From Oscillospiraceae bacterium (lineage in GTDB: Bacteria > Bacillota > Clostridia > Oscillospirales > Oscillospiraceae): a stretch of DNA of 43,835 bases. A model generated the notes under the pieces. The model was given only the letters and a program-made list of their open reading frames with translations. It was not told the origin of the DNA and did no database searches. The stretch lies in contig JAFSJE010000022.1 of the NCBI GenBank assembly GCA_017439425.1, forward strand, positions 1 to 43,835, read 5' to 3'. The translations under genes and the position numbers were made by a program. Shown here in pieces: positions 3,024 to 41,568 of this stretch. Numbering within the stretch: the stretch's first letter is position 1; the number at the start of each line of letters is the position of its first letter.

Positions 3024-7832
<4,809 letters not shown>

Positions 7833-7879: not shown

Positions 7880-9121
7880 TTACTTTGCGAGGACTTTCTT
7901 GAGTCTTGCAAAGCGGGGAAGGCCATTTTCAAGCTTGCGCTCAGGCTCTCCGGCGATAAGGGGAAGAGCGTAATCGGCGAAGTCGGAGGTGATGCCGTTG
8001 TGATCGGGGGTAATCCACTCAAGCGGAACCTTCTTCTCGTAGTTAGCGACGGAGGTAAGCGGGAGGAGGATCATCTCGCAGGTGTACTTGCCGTCGACCA
8101 TGACTCTCTTGAAGCCGACCATCTTGCCGGTCTCGCCGTTAACGGCGGCCTCAACGGCGGTCTTGCCTGCGAGGAAGCTCTCGTCGATATCGGTCTGGCT
8201 AGCGAGGTGGGCGCCGCAGCGCTGGAGAAGGCTGAGCTCGATGCCGCGAACCTTTGCACCGGTCTTTTCCTTGACGACGTTTGCAAGGTGAGCGGCGAGT
8301 CCGCCGAGCTGAGCGTGACCGAAGCCGTCGGTAGCGGAGGCCTTAGCCTCGGATACGAAGGTGCCGTCGGCATAGTGGATGCCCTCGGAAACGGCGACTA
8401 TGCACTTGCCGTTCTTATTGTAGATGTCGGTGACGTCCTTGAGGAACTTGTCCATATCGAAGTCGACCTCGGGGACATAGATAAGGTCGGGGCCGCAGCC
8501 TACGGTGGAGGCGAGGGACGCGGCGGCGGTGAGCCAGCCGGCGTGACGGCCCATGATCTCAATAACGGTGATCATGCCGGTATCGTAAACTCTGGCGTCC
8601 TTATAAACTTCGCAGACGGAGGTCGCGATGTACTTTGCCGCGGAGGCGAAGCCGGGGCAGTGGTCGGTGCCGTAGAGGTCGTTGTCGATGGTCTTGGGAA
8701 CGCCCATTACTCTGCAATCCCAGCCGGACTTTGCCATATAGCGGCTGACCTTGTCGCAGGTATCCATGGAGTCGTTGCCGCCGTTATAGAAGAAATAACG
8801 GATGTTGTACTTCTTGAAGATCTCAAGAATACGCTTGTAGTCGGTATCATCAACATCGGGGTCGGCGATTTTATAGCGGCAGGAGCCGAGCTCGGAGGAA
8901 GGAGTGTTAAGGAGAAGTCTGAGCTCCTCGGCATCCTCCTGACCCATATCATAGAGCTGATCTGCGAGCATACCCTTGATGCCGTGCGCCATGCCGTAGA
9001 CATTGGTGATGCAGTCAGAATCAAGTGCAGTGCGGATAACACCGTACGCAGACGCGTTGATTACAGAGGTGGGGCCGCCGGACTGGCCGATAACGGCAGC
9101 ACCGATAAGTTTTTCGCTCAT
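7880..9121 (-). CDS. pfp: Pyrophosphate-dependent 6-phosphofructokinase
   Basis: Converts fructose 6-phosphate to fructose 1,6-bisphosphate with PPi as phosphate donor, a reversible step of glycolysis. The 413 aa protein has the GGPTSVINAS loop near the N-terminus, GGNDSMDT (114-121) and PKTIDNDL (142-149). In the PFK family the acidic residue at the second variable position of GGxDS (D117) and the lysine of PKTIDND (K143) mark PPi enzymes, whereas ATP enzymes have Gly at both places, so PPi use is inferred from these residues. D146 is the predicted catalytic base, and EIMGRHAGWL binds the sugar phosphate. GGGAGGT sits at 9129-9135 before the ATG. It is divergent from the aldolase gene. Confidence 0.94.
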   Translation of the reverse strand: MSEKLIGAAVIGQSGGPTSVINASAYGVIRTALDSDCITNVYGMAHGIKGMLADQLYDMGQEDAEELRLLLNTPSSELGSCRYKIADPDVDDTDYKRILEIFKKYNIRYFFYNGGNDSMDTCDKVSRYMAKSGWDCRVMGVPKTIDNDLYGTDHCPGFASAAKYIATSVCEVYKDARVYDTGMITVIEIMGRHAGWLTAAASLASTVGCGPDLIYVPEVDFDMDKFLKDVTDIYNKNGKCIVAVSEGIHYADGTFVSEAKASATDGFGHAQLGGLAAHLANVVKEKTGAKVRGIELSLLQRCGAHLASQTDIDESFLAGKTAVEAAVNGETGKMVGFKRVMVDGKYTCEMILLPLTSVANYEKKVPLEWITPDHNGITSDFADYALPLIAGEPERKLENGLPRFARLKKVLAK

Positions 9122-9157
9122 TGGAATTACCTCCCATTATTTTTTGATTACAAATTG

Positions 9158-9186
9158 ATGATAACATATTTCTTCCGGATTTTAAA
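9158..9186 (-). promoter_or_regulatory. promoter of the phosphofructokinase gene
   Basis: On the minus strand TTTAAA (9181-9186), 17 bases, then TATCAT (9158-9163) preceded by TGT, an extended -10. It stands back to back with the aldolase promoter about 20 bases away. Confidence 0.55.
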
Positions 9187-9208
9187 GTGTATTTTTCTAA
9201 AATTTGAC

Positions 9209-9236
9209 TTGAAATCAGAAAACATTATGGTAAAAT
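9209..9236 (+). promoter_or_regulatory. promoter of the aldolase gene
   Basis: TTGAAA (9209-9214), 16 bases, then TAAAAT (9231-9236) with an extended TGG just before it. AAAGGAG at about 9259-9265 supplies the ribosome site. Confidence 0.65.
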
Positions 9237-9274
9237 ATATCTATCCATCAAATTGCTAAAAGGAGATGTTTGCA

Positions 9275-10261
9275 ATGGGAATCGTAACTTCCAAAGAAAT
9301 GTTCAAGAAGGCTTACGACGGCGGCTACGCAATCGGCGCTTTCAACGTTAACAACATGGAGATCGTTCAGGGAATCACTGAGGCGGCCATCGAGCTTCAC
9401 GCTCCGCTTATCCTTCAGGTTTCCAAGGGCGCCCGCAACTACGCAAAGCATGTCTATCTTATGAAGCTCATCGAGGCTGCTGTTCAGGACGCTGAGCAGA
9501 CCGCCGGTTTTGATCTTCCTATCGTCGTTCACCTCGATCACGGTGATTCCTTCGAGCTCTGCAAGAGCTGCATCGACGGCGGCTTCAGCTCCGTCATGAT
9601 CGATAAGTCCGGTCTTCCCTTCGAGGAGAACATCAAGATCACAAAGCAGGTCGTTGAGTACGCTCATGATCACGGCGTTGTCGTTGAGGCCGAGCTCGGC
9701 ACTCTCGCCGGCGTTGAGGATGAGGTCAACGTATCCGCTGAGAATTCCAGCTACACCCGTCCTGAGGACGTTCAGGAGTTCGTTGAGCGCACCGGATGCG
9801 ACTCTCTTGCCATCGCCATCGGTACAAGCCACGGCGCTTATAAGTTCACTGCTAAGCAGTGCACCCGTGATCCGATCACCGGCAAGCTCGTTCCGCCTCC
9901 TCTCCGCTTCGACATCCTTGAAGAGGTCTCCCGCCGTCTTCCCGGCTTCCCGATTGTTCTTCACGGCTCCTCCAGCGTTCCCCAGGAGTTCGTTGACAAG
10001 ATCAACAAGTTCGGCGGCAAGATGCCCGACGCAGTAGGCATCCCCGAGGAGCAGCTCCGCGAGGCCGCAAAGATGGCAGTCTGCAAGATCAACATCGACT
10101 CCGACCTCCGTCTTGCGCTCACTGCCTGCATCCGCGAGCACTTCTGGGAGCACCCCGATCACTTCGATCCGCGCCAGTATCTCACCCCCGGCCGCGCCGC
10201 AATCCGTGAGATGGTCAAGCATAAGATCGTAAATGTTCTTGGCTGCGACGGAAAAGCTTGA
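9275..10261 (+). CDS. fba: Class II fructose-bisphosphate aldolase
   Basis: Zinc-dependent enzyme that splits fructose 1,6-bisphosphate into dihydroxyacetone phosphate and glyceraldehyde 3-phosphate, the step after the divergent phosphofructokinase. The 328 aa protein has the class II signature VVHLDHGDSFE, with D88 as proton donor and H89 as zinc ligand, the EAELGTLAGVED stretch, GTSHGAYKF with a further zinc-binding His, and LHGSSSVP plus NIDSDLR for phosphate binding. I start at the ATG at 9275, nine bases after AGGAG; an ATG at 9266 directly abuts the ribosome site and is unlikely to be used. Codon use is strongly biased, as expected of a highly expressed gene, and this produces a long meaningless ORF on the other strand. 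Confidence 0.97.
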   Translation: MGIVTSKEMFKKAYDGGYAIGAFNVNNMEIVQGITEAAIELHAPLILQVSKGARNYAKHVYLMKLIEAAVQDAEQTAGFDLPIVVHLDHGDSFELCKSCIDGGFSSVMIDKSGLPFEENIKITKQVVEYAHDHGVVVEAELGTLAGVEDEVNVSAENSSYTRPEDVQEFVERTGCDSLAIAIGTSHGAYKFTAKQCTRDPITGKLVPPPLRFDILEEVSRRLPGFPIVLHGSSSVPQEFVDKINKFGGKMPDAVGIPEEQLREAAKMAVCKINIDSDLRLALTACIREHFWEHPDHFDPRQYLTPGRAAIREMVKHKIVNVLGCDGKA

Positions 10262-10287
10262 TTTTCTGGTATGATATAGTATATAAT
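10258..10287 (+). promoter_or_regulatory. promoter of the P-type ATPase-like gene, overlapping the fba terminator
   Basis: TTGATT (10258-10263) runs over the fba stop codon; TATAAT (10282-10287) follows after 18 bases. The predicted start near 10294 falls within the 5' arm of the fba terminator hairpin, so transcripts from here would not fold that terminator. Confidence 0.6.
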
Positions 10288-10320
10288 AGACACTGACGTA
10301 AAAGTCAGTGTCTATTTTTA
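10285..10320 (+). terminator. intrinsic terminator of fba
   Basis: A perfect 13-bp stem (10285-10297 with 10304-10316), six-base loop, followed by a T-run to about 10319. The left arm overlaps the -10 box of the next promoter. Confidence 0.85.
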
Positions 10321-10344: not shown

Positions 10345-12168
10345 ATGGATGAAAAGTCTAATCTGAATAACGAGCTCGATCCCGTCGAGGAGATGCTGGT
10401 TGACAAGCTAACAGAGCAGGGGAGCGAAGCGGCTCCTGAACAAGCGGAGAAGATTACTGACTCCGAGATCGCAGAAACAGAGCCAGACGCTGTAGACGAC
10501 GCCGAAGAGATTGAGGCTCCTGCCGAGGAGCTTTCTGAGGAGGATGAATTCTTCAACTCCGTCGGCGAAACTATTGAGAATACAGTCGAAACAGGCGAGC
10601 TTCCTGCAAAGCAGAAGGTTCCGTTCGCGCTCTCCGGAGCATTTCTGAACGAGGCGATAAGAGTTCTTGCCGGATTGATCCTTCTCGTGTTCAGCAGGAT
10701 GAGCTTTGTTGCTTCTCCGCTTGATACGATCCTTGCGCTTGCCGCAGTAGTCGTTTGCGGTCTGCCGCTTGTCCTTCGCGCGCTTGAGGATTTCAAGAGC
10801 AGGAACTATCTGAACGAGAATGTCATTGTTTTCGCGGCTTGCGTATTCTGCGTATTGTTCGGCGGCGTTGTTGACGGAGTTATCGCACTTGTGATTGCCG
10901 ACGTGGGATTTAATCTCAGAGATTACGCTCTTGACTGGTACCGCGGCGAGTCCGATAAGCTTCTGAAGGGCGCAAGCTCCGACACTGAACGCGATATAGT
11001 TGAACCTACCTTCCACATTATCGACTCATATTTCACTCCTGCGGTCGCATTTGTTGCTGTCATCAGCGGACTTTTGTCTCTGATTTTTGCCGGAGATAAT
11101 CTTCTTCCTCGGCTTTGCAGCTCCTGTGCGGTTCTTGCCGCAAGCGCGCCGCTTATGATCACCGCCATAACCGCTCTTGTCTACGATATCGGAAAGGGAA
11201 GCGCCATTAAAAAGGGCATCCGCTTCACGGACGTCAAGAGCATTGTTTCAGCAGCGAAGCTTTCAAGCGTTATTTTCAACAAAACCGGAACTGTGACCGC
11301 CGGCAAGTATTACGTCAGCGGAGTTTATCCCGTAAAGATCAGCGCAAAGCAGCTTATTTCGCTCGCGGCTTACGCCGAAATCTACTCCAATCATCCGCTT
11401 GCAGAAGCAATCAAGTCGGCTTACGGCGCAGAGCTTGATCCGCGCAGAGTAACTCAGCAGCGCGAGGAGAAAGGCTCTGGCAGCTTTGTACAGCTTGCGG
11501 GCGGCAATATTGTCGCCGTGGGCAATATCGAGCTTATGGAGAAGCTCGGAGTCAAGGGCGATATGATCCCATCTGACTGCGTTTCTGTTTACGTTGCGGT
11601 CGGAAAGACCTTCGTCGGCAGAATAGACTTTGAGGATGAGGTCAACCCCGGCGCGGCTGAGACTGTCTCGCGCATTAGAAAGTGCGGAGTTGCGAACGTT
11701 GCGCTCATGACAGGCGACAATACCCTCAGCGCCACAAGAATAGCACGCGGTATCGGCATAAGCGAGGTATATGCCGACTGCACGCCCCGCGATAAATACG
11801 AGAGAGTACAGTACATCATGGGTCAGCAGCAGAAGGATGAATGCCTCGGCTACATAACATCAGCCAATAGCGACGTTCGTGCAAGCGAGCTTGCCAACCT
11901 CAAAATCGTTCTCGGCGAGAATGAATCAAATCTCGCGGGAACTGCCTTTATTCCGTCCGGCGATATAGCCGCCATTCCCGCGCTTATAAACGAGGCGAAG
12001 GCCATTAACCTTATGGTTAAGATATGCACCATAGCTATCCTTGCAGCAAAGGGACTGAGCATCCTTCTCGCGCTCATCGGCATAGTGGGAGTAAGCTTTG
12101 TCGTGTGTCTTGACGTTGTTGTTGCCGTAGCGGCCGCGTTTGCCGCCATGTTCAGACTCGGCAAGTAA
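10345..12168 (+). CDS. Degenerate P1B-type (heavy-metal) ATPase-like membrane protein, probable pseudoenzyme
   Basis: A 607 aa open gene related to heavy-metal P-type ATPases but stripped of catalytic residues. Residues 1-90 are acidic and low complexity. Transmembrane segments follow (about 95-190 and 220-275). The actuator domain with TGES, normally between the segment pairs, is absent: only about 30 residues join them. The metal-site CPC is replaced by SSC, although the following stretch still aligns with the family (APLMITAITALVYDIGKG). The phosphorylation motif DKTGT reads NKTGT (N312, codon AAC at 11278-11280). The HP motif (SNHPLAEAI) and MTGDN (455-459) remain, but GDGxNDxPAL has become TSANSD (505-510). 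Two C-terminal segments close the protein. Transport is therefore very unlikely; a regulatory, binding or scaffold role is inference. It has its own promoter and is not broken by stops. Confidence 0.85.
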   Translation: MDEKSNLNNELDPVEEMLVDKLTEQGSEAAPEQAEKITDSEIAETEPDAVDDAEEIEAPAEELSEEDEFFNSVGETIENTVETGELPAKQKVPFALSGAFLNEAIRVLAGLILLVFSRMSFVASPLDTILALAAVVVCGLPLVLRALEDFKSRNYLNENVIVFAACVFCVLFGGVVDGVIALVIADVGFNLRDYALDWYRGESDKLLKGASSDTERDIVEPTFHIIDSYFTPAVAFVAVISGLLSLIFAGDNLLPRLCSSCAVLAASAPLMITAITALVYDIGKGSAIKKGIRFTDVKSIVSAAKLSSVIFNKTGTVTAGKYYVSGVYPVKISAKQLISLAAYAEIYSNHPLAEAIKSAYGAELDPRRVTQQREEKGSGSFVQLAGGNIVAVGNIELMEKLGVKGDMIPSDCVSVYVAVGKTFVGRIDFEDEVNPGAAETVSRIRKCGVANVALMTGDNTLSATRIARGIGISEVYADCTPRDKYERVQYIMGQQQKDECLGYITSANSDVRASELANLKIVLGENESNLAGTAFIPSGDIAAIPALINEAKAINLMVKICTIAILAAKGLSILLALIGIVGVSFVVCLDVVVAVAAAFAAMFRLGK

Positions 12169-12247: not shown

Positions 12248-13129
12248 ATGAAAAAATACGCATTCGGAATACTTTTCAGCCTTTTTCTGACTGCATTTAC
12301 GTTATATTCTCTGCTCGATGTGTTCGTTATCCCGCGCACATACGCCGGCGCCGTCGAGCAGGCTGTGGAAGCCGAGGCTGAGTCTATTTCAACGGAAGCA
12401 CAGGATGAATCTATATCAGATGAGTCGGTAGGAGAGCCGGAAATCACAATCAGCACTTACCGGGAAAACGACACTACGGTCTATGTGGCGGATATCGTCG
12501 TACCGGATCCGAGCTGGCTGAAAACTGCGTTCGCTTACGACACCTACGGCAAGAATATTAAGGATAAAACGAGCAATATTGCCGCTGAGCACAACGCTGT
12601 CCTTGCGATAAACGGAGACTTTTACGGCTCTCGAAACACCGGATTTGTAGTTCGCAACGGAGTTATCTATCGAGATACGAGCTCCGGCGGCGAAGCGCTT
12701 GTGATTTACTCGGACGGCAGCTTTGAAATCGTAAACGAGGACGATACCACGGCACAGGAGCTTGTGCAAAACGGAGCCGTGCAGGTGCTCTCGTTCGGGC
12801 CGGCGCTTGTGGAGAACGGCACTATCAGCGTAACCAAGTCAGACGAGGTCGGCAAGGCGATGGCGTCGAATCCTAGAACGGCTATAGGTATTATAGACGA
12901 GAATCATTATATATTCGTAGTAAGCGACGGAAGAACAAGTGAAAGCGAGGGACTGAGCCTTCTCGAGCTTGCGGAATTCTGTCAATCACTCGGCGCCGAA
13001 ACAGTCTATAATCTCGACGGCGGCGGCTCGTCAACGATGGTATATCTGGGTGAGGTAATAAATAATCCGACAACAAGCGGCAATAATATCAAGGAAAGGG
13101 AAGTGAGCGACATTGTTTATATCGGATAA
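12248..13129 (+). CDS. Phosphodiester glycosidase family protein (NAGPA-like), membrane-anchored
   Basis: A 293 aa protein with one N-terminal hydrophobic segment (about residues 5-27), likely an uncleaved anchor or signal peptide, then an acidic linker and a phosphodiester glycosidase domain. Motifs shared with the SLH protein at 5649-7832 are LAINGDFYGSR, FGPALVENG, NPRTAIGI, VVSDGRTSES and VYNLDGGGSSTMV. Proteins of this kind are often annotated as exopolysaccharide biosynthesis protein. The real substrate is unknown; action on phosphodiester-linked wall glycans outside the membrane is inference. GAAAGGAG at 12231-12238 gives the start. The next small gene begins close to its stop. Confidence 0.85.
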   Translation: MKKYAFGILFSLFLTAFTLYSLLDVFVIPRTYAGAVEQAVEAEAESISTEAQDESISDESVGEPEITISTYRENDTTVYVADIVVPDPSWLKTAFAYDTYGKNIKDKTSNIAAEHNAVLAINGDFYGSRNTGFVVRNGVIYRDTSSGGEALVIYSDGSFEIVNEDDTTAQELVQNGAVQVLSFGPALVENGTISVTKSDEVGKAMASNPRTAIGIIDENHYIFVVSDGRTSESEGLSLLELAEFCQSLGAETVYNLDGGGSSTMVYLGEVINNPTTSGNNIKEREVSDIVYIG

Positions 13130-38779: not shown

Positions 38780-40486
<1,707 letters not shown>

Positions 40487-40717
40487 TTAATCCTCCTCTC
40501 CAGCAGCCGAACAGGCATATTCGCCATTATTATCTGCTTTTGATTCTTGAATTGTCAAATCTGCGAAAGGACTATTCAGATACTTTTCAAGCTTATCTGA
40601 CAAGGTTTCCTTTGTTTTTGACGGAGCATAGACGGATGATACAACGTAAGTCACTCCGTTAATCCGGTAACGGCGCTCGTCAGCGCCGATTCCCACGATC
40701 CAGTTATCCTTGCTCAT
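40487..40717 (-). CDS. TnpW-family small transposon-encoded protein
   Basis: A 76 aa protein directly before the recombinase. The core RYRINGVTYVVSSVYAPSKTKETLSDKLEKYL fits the pattern of TnpW-family proteins (a short beta-hairpin of type GxTYxVxxxFxxxxKETxxDKxxRL followed by a helix) that accompany serine recombinases in clostridial elements. Function is unknown; help in excision is a guess. The start overlaps the ParB stop (TAATG) and the stop is at the recombinase start, so it is translationally linked to both. Confidence 0.7.
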   Translation of the reverse strand: MSKDNWIVGIGADERRYRINGVTYVVSSVYAPSKTKETLSDKLEKYLNSPFADLTIQESKADNNGEYACSAAGEED

Positions 40718-41568
40718 TACCTTTCCTCCCTGTCGCGTATTCTTTTGCGGTAGAGAAGCTCGAGACCTGCGGCAATATCCTTCTTTATGTCCTCATCCGT
40801 GTAATTGTCGGGGAAGTACTCACGGAAATCATCGCGGCAAAGGCGTATCTGCTCACGCTGATTCGGCTTTGGCTCATATAAGATGAGCTGCATTTTAGTT
40901 TCACCGAGGTTTCTGCTCTCCGATACTCTGTGAAGCCTCACCGCCTGAGAGTATGACGGCGTCATGTCCTCACGCTCTATGAAGCCCGAAATAAATCTCT
41001 GCTGACCTTCTGAGAGGTACGAAAGCTCAACGCCGACTGAGAGCGCCATTTTCCCCTCGTCCATCAGCCGTAAGAGCGGCGGTATCAGGTAAGTCAGGCG
41101 AATGTAGCGTTGAACCGTTCTTCCGCTTTCGGTGTCGGATATTTCATCTCTCGACTTGTGGCCATTTTGTCCACAAGCTTGTCCTTGATGACTTATCGCA
41201 TCGAGCTTCAGTTTATACGCATACGCTTTCTCGCTCGGAAGAATATGCTCACGGTGCAGATTGCAATCCACAAGCTCTATCGCCGCCGCATCGCGGTCTA
41301 TGTTATGCACAAAGGCAGGAATATCAGTGATTCCTGCCTTCTTTGCCGCGTACAGTCTCCGATGGCCGGAGATAACCTCATACTCATCGGTGCAATAGAT
41401 CGGTCTTATGATAAGCGGCGTCATTATTCCGTTATTGCGGATACTCTCGGTGAGAGCTTCCATTTCTTCGTTGTCCTCCACCTTGTAGGGGTGACCCTCA
41501 AAGGCATGGAGCTTGCTGATCGGTATTTCTGTGATCTGATTATTGTTATTCGCATCCAATTGGTTCAT
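40717..41568 (-). CDS. ParB/RepB/Spo0J-family protein (orphan)
   Basis: A 283 aa protein with an N-terminal ParB nuclease-like domain: IPISKLHAFEGHPYKV, MEALTESIRNNGIMTPLIIRP, and the box II motif VISGHRRLYAAK (GHRR at 68-71), followed by LVDCNLHREHILPSEKAYAYKLK and a helix-turn-helix region (ESGRTVQRYIRLTYLIPPLL). No ParA ATPase gene adjoins, as is common on conjugative and mobilizable elements, where such proteins may regulate or stabilise the circular form. The ATG overlaps the preceding stop as ATGA. Confidence 0.88.
   Translation of the reverse strand: MNQLDANNNNQITEIPISKLHAFEGHPYKVEDNEEMEALTESIRNNGIMTPLIIRPIYCTDEYEVISGHRRLYAAKKAGITDIPAFVHNIDRDAAAIELVDCNLHREHILPSEKAYAYKLKLDAISHQGQACGQNGHKSRDEISDTESGRTVQRYIRLTYLIPPLLRLMDEGKMALSVGVELSYLSEGQQRFISGFIEREDMTPSYSQAVRLHRVSESRNLGETKMQLILYEPKPNQREQIRLCRDDFREYFPDNYTDEDIKKDIAAGLELLYRKRIRDREER

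Follow-up and report, generated by a model that had tools for sequence, protein, structure and literature searches.

The window, a 43,835-nucleotide stretch of genomic DNA from an Oscillospiraceae bacterium, carries a P1B-type ATPase homologue that is very probably a conserved, non-pumping pseudoenzyme of P1B descent. By sequence comparison, this protein has lost the actuator domain, the phosphorylated Asp, the metal site and the Mg-binding loop, while its membrane segments, its nucleotide pocket and HAD motifs II and III are under purifying selection. The Asp and the actuator domain are both needed for pumping by P-type ATPases, and it is from their loss that we infer the absence of pumping. 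As to its present role, we tentatively favour a nucleotide-responsive membrane regulator or scaffold that would be expressed together with glycolysis.

Architecture and motifs of the window protein

The pseudo-P1B-ATPase gene (10345..12168, plus strand) is an intact open frame of 607 codons with no internal stop, as the initial annotation had it, and encodes a product of 607 residues. Pfam places a HAD Hydrolase match at residues 309-481 (PF00702, 7.6e-14) and no E1-E2_ATPase match (PF00122) in the protein, NCBIfam models for heavy-metal P-type ATPases match approximately residues 222-602 (best 7.5e-45, far under the cut-offs of these models), and among solved structures the best sequence matches are to chains of CopA and ZntA. 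The protein, whose parts all lie on the plus strand, opens with an acidic N-terminal tail (residues 1-96; 10345..10632) of 31 D/E and 5 K/R, with no Cys or His in its first 95 residues. Hydropathy and alignment then reveal membrane segments matching MA, MB, M1 and M2 (residues 104-196; 10654..10932), a linker of only 28 residues at the place of the actuator domain and its TGE loop (residues 197-224; 10933..11016), segments matching M3-M4 (residues 225-281; 11017..11187), the cytosolic P and N domains (residues 300-550; 11242..11994), to which PF00702 and the P1B models match, and segments matching M5-M6, with K569 and D590 (residues 553-604; 12001..12156). Against an eight-helix criterion the hydropathy peaks fit MA to M6, with M1 and M2 merging into one peak.

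All four features of a competent P1B ATPase that we looked for (the DKTGT Asp, the actuator TGE, CPx in M4 and GDGxND) are missing. NKTGT occupies residues 312-316 (11278..11292), with N312 replacing the phosphorylated Asp; APL (A268-P269-L270; 11146..11154) aligns to the CPC metal site; and TSANSD (residues 505-510; 11857..11874) stands at the place of GDGxND, so that HAD motif IV is lost. The initial annotation had read each of these losses correctly except for the metal site, where it took SSC as the replacement of CPC; SSC (259-261) lies nine residues upstream of the aligned counterpart. Marks of descent are present in the sequence match, the tree position and the SxHP motif of the N domain, here SNHP (residues 348-351; 11386..11397). 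The protein also keeps GSG (with G377 and G379; 11473..11481), VGN, the MTGDN of HAD motif II (residues 455-459; 11707..11721) and, as motif III, TPRDK with K484 (11782..11796). The persistence of the HP motif, the MTGDN loop and the aligned membrane segments was thus rightly noted, but the accompanying statement that all catalytic motifs are lost goes too far: it is true of the Asp, TGE, CPC and GDGxND and untrue of motif II, K484 and the N-domain residues H350, G377 and G379.

With the Zn/Cd group of P1B ATPases (ZntA, CadA; TIGR01512, TIGR01525) the window protein shares common descent, the membrane plan, the P-N head, SxHP, TGD and the motif III Lys, and in the tree it adjoins this group, apart from the CopA-like rows. 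Unlike ZntA and CadA, it has no actuator, phosphorylatable Asp, CPC, GDGxND, Cys/His tail or neighbouring arsR. The possibility that the pump is split, its actuator domain being the product of another gene, can be ruled out in the window genome (95.5% complete), in which PF00122 occurs only in two full ATPases. An intact Zn/Cd-type ATPase (L002) is encoded in the same genome, on another contig than the pseudo-ATPase.

Conservation and selection among congeners

The gene was found in 29 of the 34 genomes of the window's genus (L003-L006, L035-L059). Every one of the 21 good-quality congener genomes (>=90% complete, <=5% contaminated) carries it; completeness is 76-87% in the five genomes that lack it. 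No stop interrupts 28 of the 29 copies; the exception is in G205, where the copy has an in-frame TGA and runs off the contig. Two copies, L038 (stop, cut) and L050 (cut), were left out of the alignment, the motif table and the conserved-position comparison, which therefore cover 27 members. A scan of contigs with a single protein returned one close relative (L033) and one distant ATPase.

The catalytic losses recur across the genus. The position of the Asp is N in 24 of the 29 congeners, S in four and D in one (L039, as DKRGT); the actuator domain is found in none of the 29, and GDGxND in none of the 27 aligned, the nearest form being GNGKND in L058. CPC is intact only in L037 among the aligned members, and the series that it heads (CPC in L037, CPI in L035 and L036, CPV in L038, APL in the window, CVY and others in the rest) indicates that the metal site decays stepwise within the genus. 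Of the 27, the window protein and four near relatives retain the M5 Lys and M6 Asp, which the remaining 22 have lost.

Identity to the window protein drops to 26% among congeners, and S348, H350, G377, G379, G393, N394, T456, G457, D458, P481 and K484 are invariant in all 27 aligned members. Within SxHP it is the Ser and His that are invariant, the Pro being variable. At the pocket Glu (E345), six members have retained Glu, 18 have Gly, two Asp and one Val. Nineteen positions are conserved at >=93% both in the pseudo-ATPases and in 52 intact Zn/Cd-type ATPases from the genus and the family, of which 15 are, by our own assignment, motif or pocket positions. A further 11 positions, including R426, N459, R487, Y490 and Q495, are nearly fixed in the pseudo-ATPases only and rare in the 52 intact proteins. 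The invariance of the pocket residues, set beside the decay of the metal site, shows that selection acts on the nucleotide side of the protein and not on the metal side.

Whole-gene dN/dS (Nei-Gojobori) ranges from 0.049 to 0.322 in 10 pairs, with 0.074 for the window against G181. For intact P1B ATPases in nine of the same genome pairs it is 0.093-0.411, the pair at 0.411 being possibly non-orthologous; the pseudo-ATPase value is lower in four pairs and higher in five. This comparison of orthologues, which the initial annotation had proposed, places the gene within the range of intact pumps. The P-N head alone gives 0.021-0.207 in eight pairs, two L040 pairs with a misplaced domain cut being left out. 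Although these values are rough, with dS >1 in three pairs, they exclude neutral decay of the pseudo-ATPase. A recent mutant or an assembly error is ruled out by the occurrence of the same state in 29 congeners, and this recurrence excludes chance. The suggestion that this is no recent mutant but a conserved pseudo-ATPase is supported, with the gene in 29/34 congeners, all 29 copies actuator-less and dN/dS low; close relatives with both DKTGT and an actuator domain, which would have spoken against it, are absent from the genus, and intact relatives appear only deeper in the tree (G101, G054, G183).

Linkage to fba and broken pumps in other genera

Directly upstream of the pseudo-ATPase lies fba, encoding a class II fructose-bisphosphate aldolase (9266..10261, plus strand; PF01116, 4e-98), and this order is found on the same strand in 27 of the 29 congener loci, the contig ending 678 and 507 bases before frame residue 121 in the two others. 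An automated count with a gap <300 bases gave 26/29, L049 having been missed through a late start pick. No arsR gene lies between fba and the pseudo-ATPase. Other neighbours vary: among 19 non-window loci with long flanks, the window's next gene recurs in one and the xerD-like gene close to it in five. The surroundings of the window's pseudo-ATPase include two genes for phosphodiester glycosidases (NAGPA; 5649-7832 and 12248-13129), one with S-layer homology domains. Near the right end of the window, at 38780-41568 (minus strand), genes for a serine recombinase (PF00239, PF07508) and a ParB_N protein (PF02195) seem to belong to a mobile element.

The gap between the two genes holds a terminator-like hairpin followed by a U-run (10285..10316, plus strand; 13 pairs, -20 kcal/mol, z -7.4), which a terminator scan did not list. 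A sigma-70-like promoter match, TTGATT-18-TATAAT (10258..10287, plus strand), overlaps this hairpin. The gene had been credited with its own promoter, and a match is indeed present, but it is a match to consensus only, it overlaps the hairpin and its U-run, and it is one of three such matches in a 501-base stretch, against 0.5 expected. A TATAAT box also occurs in the gaps of L004 and L035-L039, and apparent stems, judged with no shuffle control, occur in many other congener gaps.

A second aldolase specialised for the pump was considered and ruled out: no second match to the window fba was found in the window genome, and linked and unlinked fba genes are interspersed. Nor did we find a residue signature of linked fba (>=80% of 32 linked and <30% of 75 unlinked rows), which disfavours direct contact between Fba and the pseudo-ATPase. 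The five congeners without the pseudo-ATPase are also without an fba orthologue, but missing contigs in these incomplete genomes explain this equally well, and obligate co-loss of the two genes was not accepted. Within the genus, fba of the window subclade (L003, L004, L035-L038) matches that of G107, G012 and G080 at 90-91%, as near to these as most subclade members are to each other, and that of the rest of its own genus at only 74-79%, yet still stands beside the pseudo-ATPase; this suggests replacement of fba in place. Long open frames antisense to pfk and fba (8000-9259, plus strand; 9248-10222, minus strand) are probably spurious effects of codon use, and can displace the true genes in simple ORF picking.

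We then inspected the DNA that follows fba in 118 genomes from 78 other genera of the same family, chosen by hand from fba matches. No ATPase-like gene follows fba in 93 of these, three stretches were too short, and 22 genomes (13 genera) have one; by genus, 62 of the 78 have none in the genomes read, and three more have none or stretches that were too short. In 19 genomes of 10 genera the gene, located 4-81 bases behind fba (to the first start codon), encodes a broken ATPase, for a total of 20 genes, one genome having two and two genes being cut by the fetched stretch. In three genomes of three genera (G054, G183 and G032), fba is followed by an arsR-family gene (PF01022) and this in turn by an intact ATPase; in two further genomes of the genus of G183, fba is not followed by an ATPase-like gene. 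Both the linkage to fba and the repeated inactivation in other genera go beyond the initial annotation.

The broken genes differ in what they have lost. The actuator domain is missing and CPC kept in g95 and g28 (a Cys/His tail is present in g95 and one g28 copy), both are lost in g5, g41 and g102, and g79 combines a missing actuator domain with NPC for CPC. The actuator domain is kept in g70 with a changed TGE and Asp replaced by Ser, TGE is kept in g4 with Asp replaced by Asn and CPC lost, and g51 and g94 show mixed states. As the Asp is still present in 14 of the 20 genes, the inactivity of those 14 would rest on their other losses. In the fba-linked pseudo-ATPases of other genera HP and TGD have mostly disappeared, and nearly all pseudo-ATPases outside the genus retain the M5 Lys and M6 Asp. 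In G028, two fba genes are each followed by their own actuator-less pseudo-ATPase (L063, L156), a duplicated pair.

In g72, g98 and g81, related pseudo-ATPases stand away from fba. Those of g98 (L146, L150) have an actuator-like domain without TGE and lie just upstream of yebC; the intact L147 of G101 lies in the order arsR, pump, yebC, so that a second gene context exists. An order-wide mixed-profile search of 394 genomes scored three candidates per genome and is worthless as a negative: among the matches listed, none spanned the actuator-less region outside the genus, and the known G003 case was missed as well. Of 66 background ATPase frames, four (three genes) without the motifs were moved to the pseudo-ATPase set; the 64 'canonical' rows, which are intact by selection and include a few duplicate loci, comprise the remaining 62 minus one L194 duplicate, plus three from fba loci.

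Phylogenetic analysis groups the pseudo-ATPases in one clade beside other Zn/Cd-type pumps, together with the intact proteins of G054, G183 and G101 (SH-aLRT 99 in a tree of 106 rows; 100/99 in a careful 45-row tree; 18 and 11 of the 29 genus members included, respectively). The intact protein of G032 falls outside, and its fba link may therefore be separate. No fba match was found in the G101 genome (78% complete), in which arsR is present. On the careful tree and its bootstrap trees the actuator-less state requires five changes (5-95% range 5-5), and at least four by the starred branches. A single origin of actuator loss was rejected (AU p 2.5e-9), and so was the grouping of every inactive protein into a single clade that excludes the intact ones (p 2.7e-4); these p values are rough, since both groups were named after viewing the first tree and several branches are long. 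Deep supports are moderate (84/76, 88/86, 92/87). These results suggest that the actuator domain was lost about five times, five being an estimate, and such evidence for the repeated origin of a pseudoenzyme is unusual. In the ancestor, fba was likely followed by a metal regulator of the arsR type and then by an intact pump; the regulator was probably lost later, and regulator and pumping likely disappeared in several lines.

Candidate functions of the pseudo-ATPase

We propose that a zinc/cadmium-type P1B ATPase gave rise to this pseudo-pump, in which pumping would have been lost. The protein would sit in the membrane, its P-N head is predicted to bind a nucleotide or another phosphometabolite without hydrolysing it, and the bound or unbound state would hold or regulate a partner. 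Binding is suggested, with less weight, by the invariant S-H, GxG, GN, TGD and Lys, whose contact roles we take to be those assigned in CopA work. When the phosphorylated Asp is mutated to Asn, ATP binding can become tighter. This role would probably be tied to glycolytic flux, given the placement with fba; that the output is the control or anchoring of a glycolytic partner is speculative. Against the proposal stand the pocket Glu, kept in only 6/27, the lack of a residue signature in linked aldolases, the related pseudo-ATPases away from fba in g72, g98 and g81, and the many genera, most of those read, with no ATPase behind fba. A nucleotide role common to all lineages is disfavoured, as HP and TGD are lost in most of the other fba-linked ones. 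More simply, the linkage could mean that the gene lived on fba transcription after the metal regulator had disappeared.

A membrane scaffold only, with the head kept for its shape and the acidic tail docking partners, would dispense with the nucleotide altogether. We consider this rather unlikely, though it would account for lineages that lose the pocket motifs and keep the fold and the membrane segments. Its appeal also lies in the tails: a short LTVDDILKEYHAEN-like motif is found again and again in the acidic N-terminal tails of the genus, for example in L056 (18 of 29 by a loose pattern, nine by a stricter one), and the g81 protein (L030, in G081) ends at its C-terminus in EFTLEDILKEFRDQ. 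This motif, perhaps used for docking, does not occur in the window protein itself, and a scaffold leaves unexplained why, in the genus, few positions of the protein are as conserved as the pocket residues. When the tail motif was searched as a DNA pattern in the 34 congeners, 12 genomes gave one match each, six in pseudo-ATPase tails and six elsewhere, and a reversed control matched in two genomes; one of the six elsewhere (G217:C131) is the end of a frame that closely precedes a gene for a pseudouridine synthase.

It is improbable that the protein is an ATP-independent carrier or channel whose membrane part conducts a metal or another solute downhill. The membrane segments do align throughout, and the window protein, its four near relatives and nearly all pseudo-ATPases of other genera have both the M5 Lys and the M6 Asp; within the genus, however, the remaining 22 aligned members lack these residues and CPC is intact in 1/27, and conduction would leave the selection on the P-N head unexplained. 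More doubtful still is a regulatory or dominant-negative partner of the cell's intact P1B ATPase, or a metal buffer or sensor. The genome does encode L002, and descent from a metal pump is probable, but the metal-binding residues are lost, no arsR gene lies alongside and L002 is on a different contig. P-type pumps of this class are, moreover, thought to act as monomers. The metal sensor raised in the initial annotation is disfavoured on the same grounds, CPC and the Cys/His tail being gone and arsR missing between fba and the gene. A slowly decaying passenger tolerated through transcription with fba would fit the different motif sets lost per lineage and the in-frame stop of G205 (1/29), but is very unlikely given 28/29 copies without a stop despite identity down to 26%, the low dN/dS and the new, nearly fixed residues.

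To return to the nucleotide-responsive regulator or scaffold, its nearest precedents lie in other systems. Other HAD-superfamily pseudoenzymes have likewise lost the motif I nucleophile and the motif IV acids and kept motifs II and III; unlike them, the window protein keeps a membrane pump body. The aldolase of animal glucose sensing is a class I enzyme. In that system, according to the available part of the source, aldolase occupancy is reported to a membrane ATPase through aldolase, TRPV and V-ATPase (PMC6720459), an ATPase of unrelated type and a connection shown by experiment, where here there is gene order only. Degenerate P-type ATPase domains are already known from apicomplexan cyclases: as far as the accessible text goes, Plasmodium GC-beta carries a degenerate P4-ATPase domain fused to a guanylyl cyclase (PMC6592433). 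The likeness lies in a P-type body without signature residues, in GC-beta attached to another function; GC-beta differs in being eukaryotic, of the P4 class and a cyclase fusion, and the accessible text does not describe actuator loss (PMC6592433). In Plasmodium GC-alpha, the sister of GC-beta, the portion of the paper at hand reports that the Asp of the appended ATPase domain is required (PMC7858053), so that this domain would not be dead. We found no passage on inactive or pseudo pumps in the available part of a 2023 review of P-type ATPases (PMC10654040). Among the matches listed in a search of the open literature (titles and abstract starts, most subscription papers lying outside it), none described a bacterial family of actuator-less or aldolase-linked P-type ATPases.

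A broader reading would have a metal pump linked to the family's aldolase gene turn repeatedly into a non-pumping, membrane-anchored partner of glycolysis, with the actuator lost about five times, and in this genus into a nucleotide-gated sensor by which the membrane would learn of the energy or fructose-bisphosphate state. We regard this as unlikely; if true, it would be a bacterial counterpart, in principle, of the sensing of glucose by aldolase and a membrane ATPase.

For annotation, the finding carries a warning, since in 22 genomes outside the genus fba is followed by an ATPase-like gene, and in 19 of them this gene is a broken pump. P-type ATPases are a textbook machine in which the Asp and the actuator are held to be indispensable; here these parts appear to have been discarded repeatedly, with the rest under selection. 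Such proteins are natural separation-of-function variants, and the question they pose is what use a pump body has without pumping, one that the tie to a core glycolytic gene makes testable. Taken together, the dead pump probably has a new job.
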